Source: a virus | Direction: 5' to 3' (one strand) | DNA: 62,171 nt | Virus record (IMG/VR): IMGVR_UViG_3300044613_000656 | Span: 1-62,171 of that record | Shown: piece after piece, positions 6,758-15,382 of the stretch | Numbering within the stretch: position 1 is the first letter of the stretch | Layout of the letters: every line of letters begins with the position of its first letter | Program-made: the position numbers and the translations under genes | Notes under the pieces: generated by a model | Seen by the model: the letters and a program-made list of their open reading frames with translations, nothing else | What the model was told of the DNA's origin: nothing | Databases searched by the model: none

Positions 6758-6982
6758 ATGTCTACATACATACAAGTAGGGGAAGTTAAGTCTTTTGAGG
6801 AGCAGATTAGAAAAAGACTGCGGGATCACTTAAACAATTCAGCCGACGACCTAGCCACCGGCGGCGCAACGGATTATGCCGATTATCGATTTCGGGTCGG
6901 CGTAATACAAGGACTTGCTATGGCAGAACGGGAAATCCTTGACCTAATCGAAATCGCTAAAAAGGCTGAAGATTCACTATGA
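6758..6982 (+). CDS. Small hypothetical protein in the head operon, 74 aa
   Basis: Helical protein (FEEQIRKRLRDHLNNSADDL, then IQGLAMAEREILDLIEIAKK). AGGAG ribosome site. Its TGA overlaps the next ATG (ATGA at 6979-6982), so it is translationally coupled to the co-chaperonin gene. Possibly a head-assembly accessory; family not recognised. Confidence 0.75.
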   Translation: MSTYIQVGEVKSFEEQIRKRLRDHLNNSADDLATGGATDYADYRFRVGVIQGLAMAEREILDLIEIAKKAEDSL

Positions 6983-7368
6983 CAATAGGCGCAATTGACC
7001 GGGCGGCAACTGAAAACGCTGCTTCCCAAATAGACCCCATAAAGATGCCCGAACCATCGGGTTACAAGATCCTCATCACTCTTCCCAAAGTGGCCGAAAA
7101 CCTCGGAGACTCAGGGCTAGTGCTGGCGGAAGCCACCAAGAAAGCGGAAGAAACAGCATCCTGCTTAGGGTTTGTACTTAAATTAGGATCGCTGGCGTAC
7201 AAGGGTTCCAAGTTTGAAAGTGGCCCTTGGTGTAAAGAAGGCGACTTCATCATCATGCGTAATTATTCAGGCACTCGGTTCAAGATTGACGGACAAGAGT
7301 TTCGCCTGATTAACGACGACCAAGTTGAAGCCGTCGTGGACGATCCTCGTGGTTATACCCGTGCGTAA
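6979..7368 (+). CDS. GroES/Cpn10-like co-chaperonin, 129 aa
   Basis: The core fits the Cpn10 fold: GYKILITLPKVAE at the N-terminus, then GLVLAEATKKAEETASCLGF in place of the 'mobile loop to G-V' segment. It is followed by LGSLAYKGSKFESGPWCKEG, DFIIMRNYSGTRFKI and a final EFRLINDDQVEAVV. This matches the order of GroES strands (I-I-P-G-D-x-V-x-F then x-x-x-D-I-L-A-V). Phage versions (T4 gp31, RB49 CocO are the established examples) replace host GroES for folding the capsid protein. Its place between portal and capsid genes supports that role. Confidence 0.75.
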   Translation: MTIGAIDRAATENAASQIDPIKMPEPSGYKILITLPKVAENLGDSGLVLAEATKKAEETASCLGFVLKLGSLAYKGSKFESGPWCKEGDFIIMRNYSGTRFKIDGQEFRLINDDQVEAVVDDPRGYTRA

Positions 7369-7378
7369 GGAGAAGTAA

Positions 7379-8440
7379 ATGGCTAATGAAGAAATCGTAA
7401 CAACACTAGAAACAATCAATAACGACCTGAAAGCCAAGGCAGAAGAGTCTACCCCAGACGTTGATTTGGGGTATGAGGAAGCGTCTGCTCAAGTGGCTGA
7501 AGTCAAGGCTTCAAAGGAGACCAAGGGTAAAAAAGCCCCCGATTTTGAGATAGAGATCGTGGACGACACCCCTCCCGAGGATCAGAACCGCAAGCCTATG
7601 AAAACCGCCCCCAAGGAGACGGACGAGATAGATGCGGTCAACGATAAAGTCCAAAAACGCCTAGATGAACTAAAGCGGGCGTGGCATGACGAGCGCAGGG
7701 CAAAAGATAAAGCCTCTCGGGAGCAAGCCGAGGCTCTAGCCTATGCCAAGCAGGTTTTAGAAGAAAATAAACGCCTGAAATCAAAGTTAACAGAGGGCGA
7801 AAAGGTGCTTCTTGAACAGGCACAGGCTCGCACCGATGTTGCACTACAAGCGGCAAAACGTGGTCTCAGGGAAGCCCAAGAATCTGGCGACCCGGATAAG
7901 GTCGCTGAGGCAATGTCTGAGATTAGTCGGGCTACTATGGAGCAGGAAAACTGGAAAAGGTATCAACCCCAGTTTGCGGCCCAAAAAGAAGAGACTTTAC
8001 AACCGGAAGATAATTCAGTACCTTATCAACAGGTTGTGCAACCGCAAGTGCCGCCGCCAGACCAGAAAGCAATCAACTGGTACAACCGCAACACTTGGTT
8101 TGGTGTTGACGAGGAAATGACGGCATTGGCGTATGCACAGCACGAGAAATTAGTTAAGACTGGGTTAAGTCCTCAGTCTGACGAATACTACGAGCGTATT
8201 GATGCTCGGCTTCGGCAAGTTTTTCCCGATAGGTTCGAGGAGAATGATTCTGCAAAAGATGAAACTCCAGAGCCACAGAAGGTAGAAAAACGCCAACAGA
8301 CAACGGTGGTAGCACCGGCGACACGAACGACCTCAAGTAAAAAGATTACGCTCACCAAATCACAGGTGGCTATTGCTCGACGCTTGGGTGTCCCCTTAGA
8401 GGTATATGCGAAACAAGTTGCTATGCAGGAGAATAGATAA
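7379..8440 (+). CDS. Capsid scaffolding protein, 353 aa
   Basis: Highly charged, mostly coiled-coil protein: acidic N-terminal third, Lys/Glu/Ala-rich helix across residues ~85-185 (KVQKRLDELKRAWHDERRAK onward). After that come a short structured part INWYNRNTWFGVDEEMTALAYAQ and a basic C-terminus ending near KITLTKSQVAIARRLGVPLE. Scaffold proteins guide procapsid assembly and leave before maturation. Position (between portal and major capsid genes), size and composition fit. Strong GGAG ribosome site. Confidence 0.82.
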   Translation: MANEEIVTTLETINNDLKAKAEESTPDVDLGYEEASAQVAEVKASKETKGKKAPDFEIEIVDDTPPEDQNRKPMKTAPKETDEIDAVNDKVQKRLDELKRAWHDERRAKDKASREQAEALAYAKQVLEENKRLKSKLTEGEKVLLEQAQARTDVALQAAKRGLREAQESGDPDKVAEAMSEISRATMEQENWKRYQPQFAAQKEETLQPEDNSVPYQQVVQPQVPPPDQKAINWYNRNTWFGVDEEMTALAYAQHEKLVKTGLSPQSDEYYERIDARLRQVFPDRFEENDSAKDETPEPQKVEKRQQTTVVAPATRTTSSKKITLTKSQVAIARRLGVPLEVYAKQVAMQENR

Positions 8441-9523: not shown

Positions 9524-10441
9524 ATGGCTATTTCACGTTCGCAACTATTAAAAGAACTCCTGCCCGGACTTAATGCTCTGTTTGGTATGGAGTACGCTCG
9601 CTACGGCGAAGAGCATAAAGAAATTTATGCTTCTGAGACTTCTGAGCGTTCGTTTGAAGAAGAAACCAAACTGTCTGGCTTCTCAGCCGCCCCAGTTAAG
9701 TCTGAAGGCGCTGCGATTGCTTATGACAACGCGCAGGAAGCATTTACGGCTCGCTATACGCACGAAACCATTGCTTACGGTTTTGCGATTACTGAAGAGG
9801 CAATTGAGGACAACCTCTATGACTCACTCAGCGCTCGTTATACCAAAGCATTGGCTCGTTCGATGGCTTACACCAAGCAGACCAAGGCTGCTGCCGTTCT
9901 GAACAACGGTTTCACTAACTCCAGCCAGTATTACGGCGGTGATGGTGTGCCTCTGTTCTCAACTCAGCACCCGTTGATCTCTGGTGGTAACAACTCAAAT
10001 CGTCCCACCACTGGTGCCGACCTGAACGAAACTTCGTTGGAAAACGCTGTTATTCAGATTGCTGCTTGGACGGACGAGCGTGGTCTGCTGATTGCTGCAA
10101 AGCCACGTAAGTTGATCGTGCCGCCCGCATTGATGTTCGTTGCAACTCGTTTGCTAGACACAGAACTACGTGTTGGCACGGCTGACAATGACATCAACGC
10201 TCTGAAATTCATGGGTTCTATCCCCGAGGGTTACACAGTTAACCACTTCTTGACGGATACGAACGCATGGTTCTTGACGACAGACGTACCTAACGGAATG
10301 AAGCACTTCGTTCGTACCCCGATGGCAACATCGATGGACGGAGACTTCGACACCGGTAACGTCCGTTACAAGGCTCGTGAGCGTTATTCGTTTGGCTGGT
10401 CTGATCCGCTCGGAATGTTTGGATCACCCGGTTCGTCCTGA
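9524..10441 (+). CDS. Major capsid protein, 305 aa
   Basis: HK97-like major head protein by context and pattern: N-terminal helix SRSQLLKELLPGLNALFGME, an E-loop-like region (FSAAPVKSEGAAIAYDNAQEAFTARYTHE is split by Gly), the P-domain helix LSARYTKALARSMAYTKQTK, and an A-domain portion with PRKLIVPPALMFVATRLLDT. It is followed directly by a strong hairpin terminator, as often seen after the most highly expressed virion gene. It has a good ribosome site, AAGGAGATCTTAA. Confidence 0.93.
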   Translation: MAISRSQLLKELLPGLNALFGMEYARYGEEHKEIYASETSERSFEEETKLSGFSAAPVKSEGAAIAYDNAQEAFTARYTHETIAYGFAITEEAIEDNLYDSLSARYTKALARSMAYTKQTKAAAVLNNGFTNSSQYYGGDGVPLFSTQHPLISGGNNSNRPTTGADLNETSLENAVIQIAAWTDERGLLIAAKPRKLIVPPALMFVATRLLDTELRVGTADNDINALKFMGSIPEGYTVNHFLTDTNAWFLTTDVPNGMKHFVRTPMATSMDGDFDTGNVRYKARERYSFGWSDPLGMFGSPGSS

Positions 10442-11473: not shown

Positions 11474-11768
11474 CGTACTAGCGACAAAACCGCTGGGGCT
11501 TACGGGTAACTTTAAAGATCAAGGCAATAACGACATTCCTCGTTGCCGTGTTAAAACCATTTACTGTAAAAATGGTACTGACGCTGGGTCTGTGGTAGTC
11601 CGTGAAGGTGGTTCTGGCGGCAATGTAATTATGACTATAGAAACCTCAGCGGCTAGTAGCGCGGGTTATACGATCATTCCAATTCCCGGTGAAGGCGTTC
11701 TTGCGAAAGAAGGTGCTTTACATGGAACAGTTACTAACACCGCTTCGGTGACTTTGTTCTATGGCTAA
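11454..11768 (+). CDS. Small beta-rich structural protein, 104 aa
   Basis: Compact beta protein: GLTGNFKDQGNNDIPRCRVK, TIYCKNGTDAGSVVVREGGS, and TASVTLFYG at the end. Ribosome site GGAGAACCAAA lies inside the preceding gene. Pattern resembles small virion proteins that coat head or tail; the exact role is unknown. Confidence 0.62.
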   Translation: MATMQYDVLATKPLGLTGNFKDQGNNDIPRCRVKTIYCKNGTDAGSVVVREGGSGGNVIMTIETSAASSAGYTIIPIPGEGVLAKEGALHGTVTNTASVTLFYG

Positions 11769-12015
11769 GACTCCTGCGTGGCAACGCAAAGAGGGAAAGA
11801 ACCCAAAAGGTGGGCTAAATGCCAAGGGTAGGGCATCGTATAACGCTGCTAACCCCGGTAAGCCCGGCCTGAAGGCTCCTCAACCAGAAGGTGGCGCTCG
11901 TAAGAAATCTTTCTGTGCCCGGATGACAGGTATGAAAAAGAAACTAACCAGCGCTAAAACCGCTAACGATCCAAACAGCCGTATCAACAAGAGTCTACGG
12001 GCGTGGAAGTGTTGA
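11761..12015 (+). CDS. Small basic conserved protein, 84 aa
   Basis: Strongly basic, Gly/Ala/Lys-rich: MAKTPAWQRKEGKNPKGGLN at the start, then KSFCARMTGMKKKLTSAKTA and NDPNSRINKSLRAWKC at the end. I recall this protein as widespread in environmental phage and some giant-virus sets, as a domain of unknown function (not verified here). Two cysteines flank the conserved C-terminal half. It is the first of a run of small basic proteins and may bind packaged DNA, by composition only. Confidence 0.7.
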   Translation: MAKTPAWQRKEGKNPKGGLNAKGRASYNAANPGKPGLKAPQPEGGARKKSFCARMTGMKKKLTSAKTANDPNSRINKSLRAWKC

Positions 12016-12016
12016 T

Positions 12017-12250
12017 ATGGAGATGATGCTTTGGAATATGGTGTTGACCGTATTGTTGGGTGTCTTAGCCTATATTGGGCACGAAAAGGCATCTGAAATA
12101 CACAGACTCAACATTTTGATTAACAAAACTAGAGAAGAGGTGGCCCGTGATAACGTCACTCAAGCAGAAATGGACAAGTTTGTTGACCACATTGACCAAC
12201 GGTTTAATAAACTTGAAGCAAAAATTGATCTCCTTATGCAGAAGGGATAA
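12017..12250 (+). CDS. Membrane-anchored coiled-coil protein, 77 aa
   Basis: One N-terminal hydrophobic helix (MLWNMVLTVLLGVLAYIG, residues ~4-21) followed by a charged coiled coil (SEIHRLNILINKTREEVARD ... KLEAKIDLLMQKG). Topology resembles an inner-membrane spanin or a holin-associated coiled coil, but there is no partner lipoprotein nearby and it lies in the head region. Function undetermined. Confidence 0.6.
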   Translation: MEMMLWNMVLTVLLGVLAYIGHEKASEIHRLNILINKTREEVARDNVTQAEMDKFVDHIDQRFNKLEAKIDLLMQKG

Positions 12251-12253
12251 GAA

Positions 12254-12880
12254 ATGAAAAAGATGAAAACTAAGCGTTATCAGGAAGGGATGAGTGTAGA
12301 AGGTGATTACGAGTCCTCTGATGATTACAAAAATCTAATAAGTGCCGCAGCCCGTGAAAAGGCCGATGCAGAAAAATCAGCCACCCCTGCCGCTCCTGCA
12401 AAAGCAGCCTCTTTTGGCGAAGCATTTAAATCTGCTCGTGGTCGTGGCGATAAGACGTTTGAGTACATGGGTAAAAAGTACACAACGGAAATGGCTGGTG
12501 GTAAAAAGGCCCCTGCTGCTAAATCTTTTGCCGACACTCAGGACAGAGAAGCAGGCGCTAGAGTTACTAGAACTGAACGGCAGAACGCATTGTTTGCTGA
12601 AAATAAGCCGAAGAAATCATCTTCGTATGGTGAAGCCGCTCGTTCAGCCCGTACCCTCGGGGATGTTATGAAAGAAGATTTAGAGCGGTCAGCAGCAATA
12701 AGATCAGGCAAAGAAAAAACCCTTGGTACTCGGTTCCAAGAAGGCATGCGTAAATTTGGTCGTGCTTTAGCAACTGGACAGCCGCAAGGTGGGATGAAAA
12801 AAGGCGGAATGGTTGGTTCTGCTTCCAAGCGTGCCGATGGTTGTGCCCAGCGTGGTAAGACTAAAGGACGGATGGTCTAA
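12254..12880 (+). CDS. Basic Ala/Lys-rich virion-region protein with DGCAQRGKTKGR tail, 208 aa
   Basis: Low-complexity, positively charged protein with two internal copies of a motif SxGEAxxSARxxGD (about residues 55-70 and 117-132). It also has a segment SFADTQDREAG that reappears in the large protein at 30218. The C-terminus GGMVGSASKRADGCAQRGKT then KGRMV is shared with the next genes. Likely a disordered, nucleic-acid-binding or internal virion component. Function not known. Confidence 0.62.
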   Translation: MKKMKTKRYQEGMSVEGDYESSDDYKNLISAAAREKADAEKSATPAAPAKAASFGEAFKSARGRGDKTFEYMGKKYTTEMAGGKKAPAAKSFADTQDREAGARVTRTERQNALFAENKPKKSSSYGEAARSARTLGDVMKEDLERSAAIRSGKEKTLGTRFQEGMRKFGRALATGQPQGGMKKGGMVGSASKRADGCAQRGKTKGRMV

Positions 12881-12882
12881 TC

Positions 12883-13140
12883 ATGGCTGATAAACCACCA
12901 GTTGAGGGTCGCACCGCTTACATCAAAAAGAATATGCCGGATGGCGTGTTAAAAAGTATTTTGGTTAAGGGAAGTGAACTTGTTGATGACATGGGTTTTA
13001 CCCAACAGAAAGAGTACGAAGGGAAAACCCGAGAAGAGGTAGCCAAGAAACCCACGCCCGAGAAAAAGCGGGCTGGTGGTTACGTAAAGGCCGCTGATGG
13101 CTGTGTTCAACGGGGTAAGACCAAAGGAAGGATTGTGTAA
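12883..13140 (+). CDS. Small basic protein with DGCVQRGKTKGR tail, 85 aa
   Basis: Begins MADKPPVEGRTAYIKKNMPD, has a short beta-like stretch (GVLKSILVKGSELVDDMGFT), then a Lys/Glu linker and the tail AGGYVKAADGCVQRGKTKGR. The tail is 15 or more residues nearly identical to that of the preceding gene. Stop and next start overlap (TAATG). Function unknown. Confidence 0.65.
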   Translation: MADKPPVEGRTAYIKKNMPDGVLKSILVKGSELVDDMGFTQQKEYEGKTREEVAKKPTPEKKRAGGYVKAADGCVQRGKTKGRIV

Positions 13141-13391
13141 TGGTTCGTGACCACGATGAAATCTATGATGAACTTTTGGAAGAAGAGGAACGTAAAAGCG
13201 TTCGTGGTCAACAGAAAAAGGGCACGACAGCAAAACCTCCTGAAAAAAATCCTTCACCTAGTGAAGATATAGAGTACCCCACGCCAACGCCAAAAAAGGC
13301 TAAACCTGTAGTCAAGATTGCGGCGTTGCGTAAGGGTGGTTCGATAGATGGCTGTGCCATCAGAGGGAAAACCCGTGCCAGCCACAAGTAA
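13140..13391 (+). CDS. Small charged protein with GGSIDGCAIRGKT tail, 83 aa
   Basis: Acidic N-terminus (MVRDHDEIYDELLEEEERKS), Pro/Lys-rich disordered middle, and the C-terminal tag ALRKGGSIDGCAIRGKTRAS. Third consecutive gene to end in this tag. Its last codons overlap the start of the next gene. Function unknown; the shared tag suggests a shared binding partner. Confidence 0.65.
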   Translation: MVRDHDEIYDELLEEEERKSVRGQQKKGTTAKPPEKNPSPSEDIEYPTPTPKKAKPVVKIAALRKGGSIDGCAIRGKTRASHK

Positions 13392-13797
13392 GAAACAAGA
13401 AAGATTTATGCAAGCGGTGGCTAATAACCCAAAGTTTGCAAAAAAGGTGGGCGTACCAACGTCCGTAGGCAAAGAGTTCACTAAAAAGGAAGGTGGAGTC
13501 ATGAAAGAGTCAAAGGCAATGATGAAGAAAGAAGTTTCCTTCATGAAGAAAAAAGGCGCTCCCAAGTCCATGCTCAAGCATGAGATGAAAGAAGCCGGTA
13601 TGAAGAAGATGCGTGCTGGTGGTATGCCGATGGGGCCAGATGGCAAACCCACTTTTGTTGGTGACGGTAAAGGCAAAATGAGATCTGGTGGTCTGGCTGG
13701 TGGTCACAAGTCCGCTGACGGTGTTGCTTCCAAGGGCAAGACTAAAGGCAAGACGGTCAAAATGGCTGGCGGCGGGATGCGCGGCGGGAAGTGCTAA
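13375..13797 (+). CDS. Basic protein, 140 aa, SKKQxRFMQAVA family, probable GTG start
   Basis: The reading frame is open from an ATG at 13348, but a GTG at 13375 has a better ribosome site (AGAGGGA, 6-7 nt before). It gives the N-terminus M-PATSKKQERFMQAVANN, which matches a family of small phage proteins beginning MPxxSKxQxRFM (recalled, not searched). A second, in-frame ATG at 13501 has a strong AGGTGGAG ribosome site and would give a 98-residue product starting MKESKAMMKKEVSFMKKKG. The C-terminal half carries MKKMRAGGMP, GKMRSGGLAGG, SADGVASKGKTKG and VKMAGGGMRGGKC. Confidence 0.65.
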   Translation: MPATSKKQERFMQAVANNPKFAKKVGVPTSVGKEFTKKEGGVMKESKAMMKKEVSFMKKKGAPKSMLKHEMKEAGMKKMRAGGMPMGPDGKPTFVGDGKGKMRSGGLAGGHKSADGVASKGKTKGKTVKMAGGGMRGGKC

Positions 13798-14076
13798 ATG
13801 AGACCGAGCCGGGGCATGGGGGCCATGAACCCCTCTAAGATGCCGAAAGCCAAGACGATCAAGCGGAAAGACAAACCGCAAGACGTTGAAATGTTTGCCA
13901 AAGGTGGTGAGTCTCGGGTTAACGAGGCTGGCAATTACACCAAACCCGGCATGCGTAAGTCTATATTTGAGCGCATCAAGGCTGGCGGCAAGGGGGGTGC
14001 TCCGGGTCAATGGAGTGCCCGTAAGGCTCAAATGCTGGCTATGCAGTATAAAAAGTCTGGTGGAGGCTATAAGTAA
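13798..14076 (+). CDS. Small basic conserved protein, 92 aa
   Basis: Central and C-terminal part ESRVNEAGNYTKPGMRKSIF and KAGGKGGAPGQWSARKAQML look like a conserved compact unit that I recall from many aquatic phages. The N-terminus is basic and disordered, and FAKGG links to the GG-motif set. It directly follows the preceding stop and its own stop overlaps the next ATG. Role unknown. Confidence 0.68.
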   Translation: MRPSRGMGAMNPSKMPKAKTIKRKDKPQDVEMFAKGGESRVNEAGNYTKPGMRKSIFERIKAGGKGGAPGQWSARKAQMLAMQYKKSGGGYK

Positions 14077-14429
14077 TGGCTTGGTCAGAAAAGTACAAAC
14101 GCTCTATTGACTGCGATAGTCCCAAAGGCTTTTCGCAAAAAGCGCATTGTGCTGGTCGAAAGAAAAAAATGGCCGGTGGCGGCCTAGCCAAGCCTCAGCA
14201 AAGTCTCAAAGACTGGACTGCTCAAAAGTGGAGAACTAAGAGTGGCAAACCTTCTACGCAAGGATCGAAGGCGACAGGGGAACGGTATCTTCCCTCTGCT
14301 GCAATCAAAGCGTTATCCCCCCAAGAATATGCCGCAACAACCCGAGCCAAGCGTGCAGGGAAAGCCAAGGGAAAACAATTTGTGGCACAGCCTAAGAACG
14401 TGGCTAAAAAGACTGCTGGGTATAGGTAA
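14076..14429 (+). CDS. Small basic conserved protein, 117 aa
   Basis: N-terminal AWSEKYKRSIDCDSPKGFSQ KAHCAG with two cysteines, then KKKMAGGGLAKPQQS, then a conserved-looking unit DWTAQKWRTKSGKPSTQG ... RYLPSAAIKALSPQEYAATT ... GKQFVAQP. I recall the last unit as a domain of unknown function shared by phages and large viruses (name not verified). Possibly packaged with DNA; evidence is composition only. Confidence 0.68.
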   Translation: MAWSEKYKRSIDCDSPKGFSQKAHCAGRKKKMAGGGLAKPQQSLKDWTAQKWRTKSGKPSTQGSKATGERYLPSAAIKALSPQEYAATTRAKRAGKAKGKQFVAQPKNVAKKTAGYR

Positions 14430-14434
14430 AAATA

Positions 14435-15382
14435 ATGAGCACAACAACCGGAACCGAACTGTTTAACCTAAACCTCAATGACCTCATTGAGGAGGCGTTT
14501 GAGCGTGCCGGTTCAGAGGTGCGTTCGGGCTATAACGTCCGCACGGCTAGAAGAAGTTTAAATCTGTTGACTATCGAGTGGTCTAACCGGGGCGTAAATC
14601 TTTGGACGATTGAAGAGGGGCAGATCCCGCTCGTTCAAGGGCAGGTAACTTATCCCCTGCCGGTAGACACAATTGACTTGATAGAGCACGTAGTTCGGAC
14701 TAATAACGGGGTGCAGTCTACGCAGACGGATATTAATATCACCCGGATCTCGGTCTCAACTTATGCAACTATCCCTAACAAAATTACACAAGGCCGACCC
14801 ATTCAGGTATGGGTGGATCGTCAGTCTGGAAGTGTTGGAAAGACAGGGTTAACCCTAGCATCAAATATTGTCGCTGCCGACACAACCATTACTCTGTCTT
14901 CGACGCTTGGCTTACCAGCCACGGGTTATGTGACGATTGGTGCTGAAACAATCAACTACACGAATACGACCTCGACTCAACTGCTAAATTGTCTGCGTGG
15001 TCAAAATGGAACCACCGCAGCCTCCCATACGGCTGGGGCTACAGTTACTGCACCTGAACTGCCAAATATCAATGTGTGGCCTGCCCCAGATCAAGGTACG
15101 GCGGCTAGTCCTGTCTATACCTTTGTTTACTGGCGTTTACGCCGGATTCAGGATGCGGGTAATGGCATCAATACCCAAGATATTCCGTTCCGTCTACTGC
15201 CCTGTATGGTGGCTGGGCTGGCCTATTACATAGCCATGAAGATCCCTGAAGGGGCGGCACGGTTAGATATGCTGAAAATGGCATATGAGGAACAATGGAT
15301 GTTGGCCTCTGGTGAAGATCGTGAAAAGGCGTCTGTTAGATTTGTGCCGCGCAATATGTTTGTGACAGGTGGCGGCTATTAA
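14435..15382 (+). CDS. Head-tail adaptor, P22 gp4-like, with inserted beta domain, 315 aa
   Basis: Binds the portal after packaging to build the neck. N-terminal part LIEEAFERAGSEVRSGYNVR TARRSLNLLTIEWSNRGVNLW is typical of gp4-type adaptors, as is the C-terminal helical part PFRLLPCMVAGLAYYIAMKI. Between residues ~130 and 206 there is an inserted small beta unit (ITLSSTLGLPATGYVTIGAE, then CLRGQNGTTAASHTAGATV) of a kind seen repeatedly in phage surface proteins. Without the insert the length matches the family. Confidence 0.82.
   Translation: MSTTTGTELFNLNLNDLIEEAFERAGSEVRSGYNVRTARRSLNLLTIEWSNRGVNLWTIEEGQIPLVQGQVTYPLPVDTIDLIEHVVRTNNGVQSTQTDINITRISVSTYATIPNKITQGRPIQVWVDRQSGSVGKTGLTLASNIVAADTTITLSSTLGLPATGYVTIGAETINYTNTTSTQLLNCLRGQNGTTAASHTAGATVTAPELPNINVWPAPDQGTAASPVYTFVYWRLRRIQDAGNGINTQDIPFRLLPCMVAGLAYYIAMKIPEGAARLDMLKMAYEEQWMLASGEDREKASVRFVPRNMFVTGGGY

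Follow-up and report, generated by a model that had tools for sequence, protein, structure and literature searches.

Four consecutive small genes of a 62,171-base viral contig (IMG/VR record IMGVR_UViG_3300044613_000656; here the window, meaning this whole stretch) encode basic proteins with unrelated bodies that carry the same short peptide, the RGKT tag, at or near their C-termini. From sequence comparisons, the tag emerges as a protein-level module that is portable between unrelated proteins and co-varies within each genome. It is restricted to the interval between the genes for the major capsid protein (MCP) and the head-tail adaptor, in phages of a single MCP lineage. The phages that carry it form a large group from freshwater, most of them uncultured, and its role seems to be that of an address label, not described before, by which proteins are loaded into the virus particle or docked onto it. 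We lean, if only just, towards a specific form of this reading, in which it is a short linear docking motif for small, basic, disordered and hypervariable head accessory proteins, resembling a capsid targeting sequence (CTS) or a cargo-loading peptide.

Results

The tag core, DG..[AV].[RK]GKT, lies at 12836, 13096, 13347 and 13717, always on the + strand and once per gene; a six-frame scan of the whole window found this core at no further site, and its chance expectation there, from 100 dinucleotide shuffles, is 0. An earlier sequence-only reading of this DNA had placed the tag in the genes starting at 12254, 12883, 13140 and 13375. All four carry the core, and the observation has proved larger than was noted then. 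Tags 1 and 2 form the exact ends of their proteins (ADGCAQRGKTKGRMV* and ADGCVQRGKTKGRIV*, asterisks marking stops) and agree at 13 of 15 residues, in keeping with the near-identity first described. The third gene ends in a variant tag, SIDGCAIRGKTRASHK*, and the tag of the fourth, SADGVASKGKTKGK, is sub-terminal, a 10-residue core being followed by 16 residues. The proteins are as basic as that reading held, with isoelectric points (pI) of 9.3-10.4, and order-promoting residues are clearly scarce in three of the four. Its gene starts also stand: the longest open reading frame of gene 4 opens at ATG 13348, and the GTG at 13375 (VPATSKKQ..) is the better start because it fits the opening of the family alignment, MP[TS]xSKKQ (e.g. 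MPTVSKKQ..). This GTG falls within the last codons of gene 3 (13375-13391), where the end of tag 3 is probably read in two frames. A short -TRA* subtype that always overlaps the start of the next gene was considered and rejected; the overlap is seen in the window and in a handful of other loci but is not general.

Across phages the tag is about 15 residues long, follows a Gly-rich linker and has the consensus [AG][D/G]G[ICV][A/E]x[RK]GKT[RK]G[KR]M[VIC]. With each position freed in turn, G1, G6 and T8 were without variation in 326 matches, K7 was Lys in 322 and Thr was never Ser, figures that hold for tags otherwise matching the retrieval patterns, which constrain some positions. His or Arg replaces the Lys in some tags. 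A second form, GGxEx[RK]GKT, was found among C-termini of the same interval that the D-form pattern had missed, and the collected loci hold 429 D-form and 139 E-form tags. The acidic residue stands at position 0 or at position 3 (DGxA or GGxE), rarely at both, with a few exceptions that have both acids or neither. In most cases the tag is C-terminal, with a hydrophobic end ([MIF][VIC]), and many tags have 10-30 residues behind them. A rare third form, GEH[TS][VI]QxKGHT[KR]GK, lacks the first conserved Gly (L254, L249, L090 and L274), and in L027, L081, L116, L276 and L312 a tag-like stretch (approximately M[AG][FY]K[AS]ADGIxxKGKTKGxNLGDSG) lies near the N-terminus of another small protein, with about 45 residues after it.

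IMG/VR was searched with a degenerate DNA pattern of the D form and then of the E form, and counts from the matches listed are lower bounds. The first 121 loci examined contained at least 253 tagged reading frames, with as many as six tags in one locus; in 156 of the frames exactly four residues separate the core from the stop. With MCP-fetched loci added, there are at least 327 distinct tagged proteins in 159 loci, and 204 of these have the core at that same distance from the C-terminus. Among cultured phages, tblastn with the tag alone matched one Planktothrix/Synechococcus phage genotype (Pag-Yong1, MinM2 and Pra-JY27; MCP 73%), whose single tag is borne by a Pro/Ala-rich protein of 308 residues, UMO75986. 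Further tag queries against cultured phages gave nothing, though low-complexity filtering may have masked matches, and weak Providencia matches were judged to be chance. Pfam, PHROG and PDB searches with the tag returned no match, such short queries having limited sensitivity. Pattern matches in bacterial isolates are not C-terminal tags; within bacterial genome sets, true tags occur on contigs of metagenome-assembled genomes only, which are probably misbinned phage. A literature search for the motif or a similar phage C-terminal tag, in which subscription journals were thinly covered, found nothing relevant.

The tag keeps to one place in these genomes. Where a locus includes both border genes, the D-form tags fall almost without exception (154 of 156) in the stretch that opens where the MCP gene ends and closes where the head-tail adaptor gene begins, and all are encoded on the coding strand; in the enlarged set this interval holds 222 D-form tags against 4 outside and 53 E-form tags against 0. 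Loci fetched by MCP alone are the fairest sample for tag location: a strict tag is present in 29 of their 30 complete intervals, the thirtieth having a one-residue variant (DGCCTKGKTRGKMV), and only 2 tags fall in 318 kb outside the intervals, which total 118 kb. Entire records, 26-87 kb long, show the tags gathered in a single local cluster, and the window fits the general layout, with its tags at 12797-13794 (Table 1).

It keeps equally to one MCP lineage. Tag records encode a window-type MCP (26 of 27 and 13 of 13 tested), 74-88% identical to that of the window. Three sister MCP lineages were fetched independently from the seeds DSL-LC04 (about 67% identity to the window MCP), HTVC023P (66%) and CRP-902 (56%); 36 of 39 loci of the window lineage are tagged, against 1 of 48, 0 of 36 and 0 of 53, respectively. 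The single tag within the otherwise untagged DSL-LC04 lineage (L417, RRGDGIAIRGRTKGKLY*) is a transfer or an ancestral remnant. The sequence-only reading had named a lack of conservation beyond close relatives as grounds for refutation, a check that the tag survives only in part: it extends across a large IMG/VR MCP lineage and to one cultured genotype, and stops sharply at the lineage edge. Sister phages have the same gene order, GroES included, without tags. The GroES co-chaperonin of the window is encoded at 6979-7368, just 5' of the capsid genes, and is also found in the cultured sister phages examined. Median identity across loci, many of them chosen by MCP, is 86% for MCP, 64% for TerL, 56% for portal, 58% for adaptor and 41% for the putative scaffold, which in the window is a 353-residue protein encoded at 7379-8440. 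Because the window MCP matches the PHROG major head protein, it probably has the HK97 fold; a PDB sequence search with MCP and adaptor gave no match. MCP residues fixed in the tagged lineage only, among them L13, K49, N157, W182, L189, P194 and L296, were listed and set aside, being inseparable from drift.

The proteins behind the tag are diverse. BLAST clustering of 293 bodies, stripped of the tag, gave 145 clusters, of which 114 are singletons, and in none of 68 within-genome pairs of terminal tags do both bodies share a cluster. The body of tagged protein 3 had no BLAST match among the collected tagged proteins; tagged protein 4 matches PHROG 16759 and, more weakly, the N-terminus of families annotated as virion structural protein. 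DUF6321 (PF19846), the family of window gene 11761, has 125 orthologues in our set, of which 96 end at the family's own W[KN]C and 27 go on with a GG linker and a tag of the D or E form. Because some orthologues end at their own terminus and others are extended by the tag, the tag is an add-on module. The Pfam domain stops before it, and the family also occurs in other phages without a tag. The DUF6321 protein is itself well conserved (median 79%), and at the DNA level 11761-12015 shares about 70-73% identity with hypothetical genes of T4-like cyanophages, which suggests exchange of this stretch between unrelated phages.

Tagged proteins 1 and 4 were modelled with AlphaFold2 from shallow alignments (6 sequences); the models are mostly disordered (mean predicted local distance difference test score, pLDDT, of 56 and 53), and the tag, with pLDDT below 50, has no strand or helix. 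In protein 1, residues ~51-80 (12404-12493) form a module, SFxEAFxxARxxGDxTFxWxGKxYTTExA, modelled confidently as a helix and a beta-hairpin; it recurs in other tagged proteins and, as weak to moderate matches, in crAss-like, jumbo Pseudomonas and Rhizobium phages and even microviruses.

Synonymous sites indicate what is being maintained. Where tag residues agree, the codon is the same in 47% of cases within genomes and 43% between genomes, against 36% expected from codon usage, and in L062 and L117 identical tag peptides have codons only 29-32% identical. High nucleotide identity in excess of protein identity, as a recent DNA cassette or repeat would show, is seen only at L069. Because codons differ within genomes, L069 excepted, most tags have been kept as peptide and not through recent copying. 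At the variable tag positions, tags of one genome agree at 4.25 of 7 against 2.94 expected, a value reached in 0 of 2000 shuffles. This within-genome agreement is consistent with co-evolution with a common partner, with contributions from shared history and occasional conversion.

Table 1. Features of the tag region and its borders in the window
Feature	Coordinates	Strand	Remarks
Major capsid protein (MCP)	9524..10441	+	5' border of tag region; lineage marker; candidate partner
DUF6321 protein	11761..12015	+	without tag here; ends RAWKC*
Tagged protein 1	12254..12880	+	208 residues, pI 10.0; mostly disordered; helix and beta-hairpin module at residues ~51-80
Tag 1 and Gly linker	12797..12877	+	KKGGMVGSASKRADGCAQRGKTKGRMV*
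Tagged protein 2	12883..13140	+	85 residues, pI 9.6
Tag 2 and linker	13069..13137	+	RAGGYVKAADGCVQRGKTKGRIV*
Tagged protein 3	13140..13391	+	83 residues, pI 9.3
Tag 3 and linker	13329..13388	+	RKGGSIDGCAIRGKTRASHK*; variant end; last codons overlap gene 4 start
Tagged protein 4	13375..13797	+	140 residues from GTG 13375; SKKQERFM family, PHROG 16759
Tag 4, sub-terminal	13681..13794	+	RSGGLAGGHKSADGVASKGKTKGKTVKMAGGGMRGGKC*
Two small basic proteins	13798-14076 and 14076-14429	+	without RGKT tag; KGG or GGG motifs
Head-tail adaptor	14435..15382	+	SU10 adaptor-like (just under Pfam cut-off); 3' border of tag region

Discussion

We consider it probable that the tag has a shared docking function. 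The unrelated bodies, the location among capsid genes, the portability and the within-genome coordination strongly support the common binding partner or targeting tag put forward in the sequence-only reading. Since the tag is limited to one lineage, a phage-encoded partner is likelier than a general host factor, and the MCP comes first among the candidates: of the widely shared locus proteins compared it shows the highest conservation, and the tag stops where the MCP lineage stops. We propose that the tag, on its flexible Gly-rich linker, docks on a single partner that the phage itself encodes and that is part of the assembling head; the MCP lattice and the procapsid are the likeliest choices. 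Acting as a C-terminal capsid-targeting or cargo-loading peptide, it would thereby bring accessory proteins that are small, basic and disordered into the head or attach them to it, and the hypervariable bodies might then condense DNA or enter the host with it, like T4 internal proteins. Loading into or onto the head has about an even chance of being what the tag does; packaging of tagged proteins into virions, also suggested earlier, is plausible.

Two known systems invite comparison. The T4 CTS is N-terminal, is cleaved and targets the scaffolding core. It loads highly diverse internal proteins, and also foreign fusions, into the head, and the diversity of these proteins has been tied to anti-restriction functions (PMC3012670). 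Like the CTS, the tag is short and conserved and marks small basic proteins that are otherwise unrelated; unlike it, the tag stands at or near the C-terminus in most proteins. The likeness would lie in function and implies no homology. No separate prohead protease gene was identified. The encapsulin cargo-loading peptide is a short conserved C-terminal peptide of about 10 residues, carried by unrelated cargo encoded beside an HK97-fold shell and recognised by its conservation across species (PMC7355545). The tag is likewise a conserved C-terminal peptide of unrelated proteins encoded beside a shell gene of presumed HK97 fold; encapsulins, however, are cellular compartments, and in these phages shell binding is putative, and no kinship between the two peptides is known. 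It looks as if the tag works like a capsid-targeting or cargo-loading signal, yet it can be assigned to neither family, its position differing from that of the T4 CTS and both its shell binding and its loading role being putative.

Several observations weigh against a head-loading signal. The tag is dispensable for the architecture, as sister phages share the gene order but lack it. In about one third of cases the tag stops short of the exact terminus, and a few tags lie near the N-terminus. The conservation of the MCP may have other causes, many loci having been selected by it. The tags of L069 have 89-100% identical codons, and concerted evolution explains some of the within-genome similarity. 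Virion proteomics or binding data for tagged proteins were sought, and none were found.

Among other explanations, we think it unlikely that the tag is a phosphate- or DNA-binding element whose basic Gly-Lys-Thr loops coat or condense the genome without a protein partner. Short Gly-rich loops can bind phosphate, and both tag and bodies are rich in Lys and Arg. Lysines in T4 internal proteins do touch DNA phosphates (PMC3012670). Conservation nevertheless goes far beyond charge, with G1, G6 and T8 invariant, Thr never Ser and the acidic residue kept by switching position, and DNA binding requires neither the within-genome coordination of variants nor the limit to a single lineage. The string GxxxxGKT also fits the P-loop signature (Walker A, PROSITE PS00017), but we rejected a P-loop NTPase: the strand-loop-helix context is missing, the tag is mostly at the chain end, the Lys is sometimes His or Arg, and an NTPase domain was not found.

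A shade less likely is a signal that governs localisation or stability within the infected cell, with the tag binding a non-capsid target such as a host chaperonin, a protease adaptor, a membrane site or a replication complex. The hydrophobic ends of the mostly C-terminal tags and the phage-encoded GroES would suit such a role, but many tags are followed by 10-30 residues, tagged genes occur only in the head block, and the tag boundary tracks the MCP while sister lineages have GroES and yet no tag. We give a lower chance again to a structural tail of exterior decoration or neck proteins, docking on portal or adaptor in place of serving as an interior loading signal: although the adaptor gene closes the tag interval and a cement-like protein is annotated in this interval of the relative DSL-LC04, decoration proteins are folded, whereas these bodies are basic, of low complexity and for the most part disordered, and adaptor and portal are only 56-58% conserved. 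A DNA-level feature, either a recombination site or a recently copied 3' cassette that shuffles genes, would suit the L069 codons and the fast turnover of bodies but is very improbable, being largely refuted by synonymous sites that elsewhere lie little above the codon-usage expectation, even for identical tag peptides, and by an acidic-residue switch that preserves peptide character and not DNA.

Returning to the head-loading motif, we speculate, with slightly less than even confidence, that an entire lineage of phages abundant in freshwater has a capsid-loading code of its own, C-terminal and portable, for fast-changing virion accessory proteins, and that this hypervariable cargo locus can be identified by the tag alone. 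If the tag does load the head, virion cargo, possibly including injected early-acting proteins, would become predictable from sequence in many uncultured phages, and phage capsids would gain a minimal cargo-loading peptide on a par with the CTS and those of encapsulins. In that case the hypervariable bodies would make up a catalogue of candidate counter-defence or DNA-condensing proteins.

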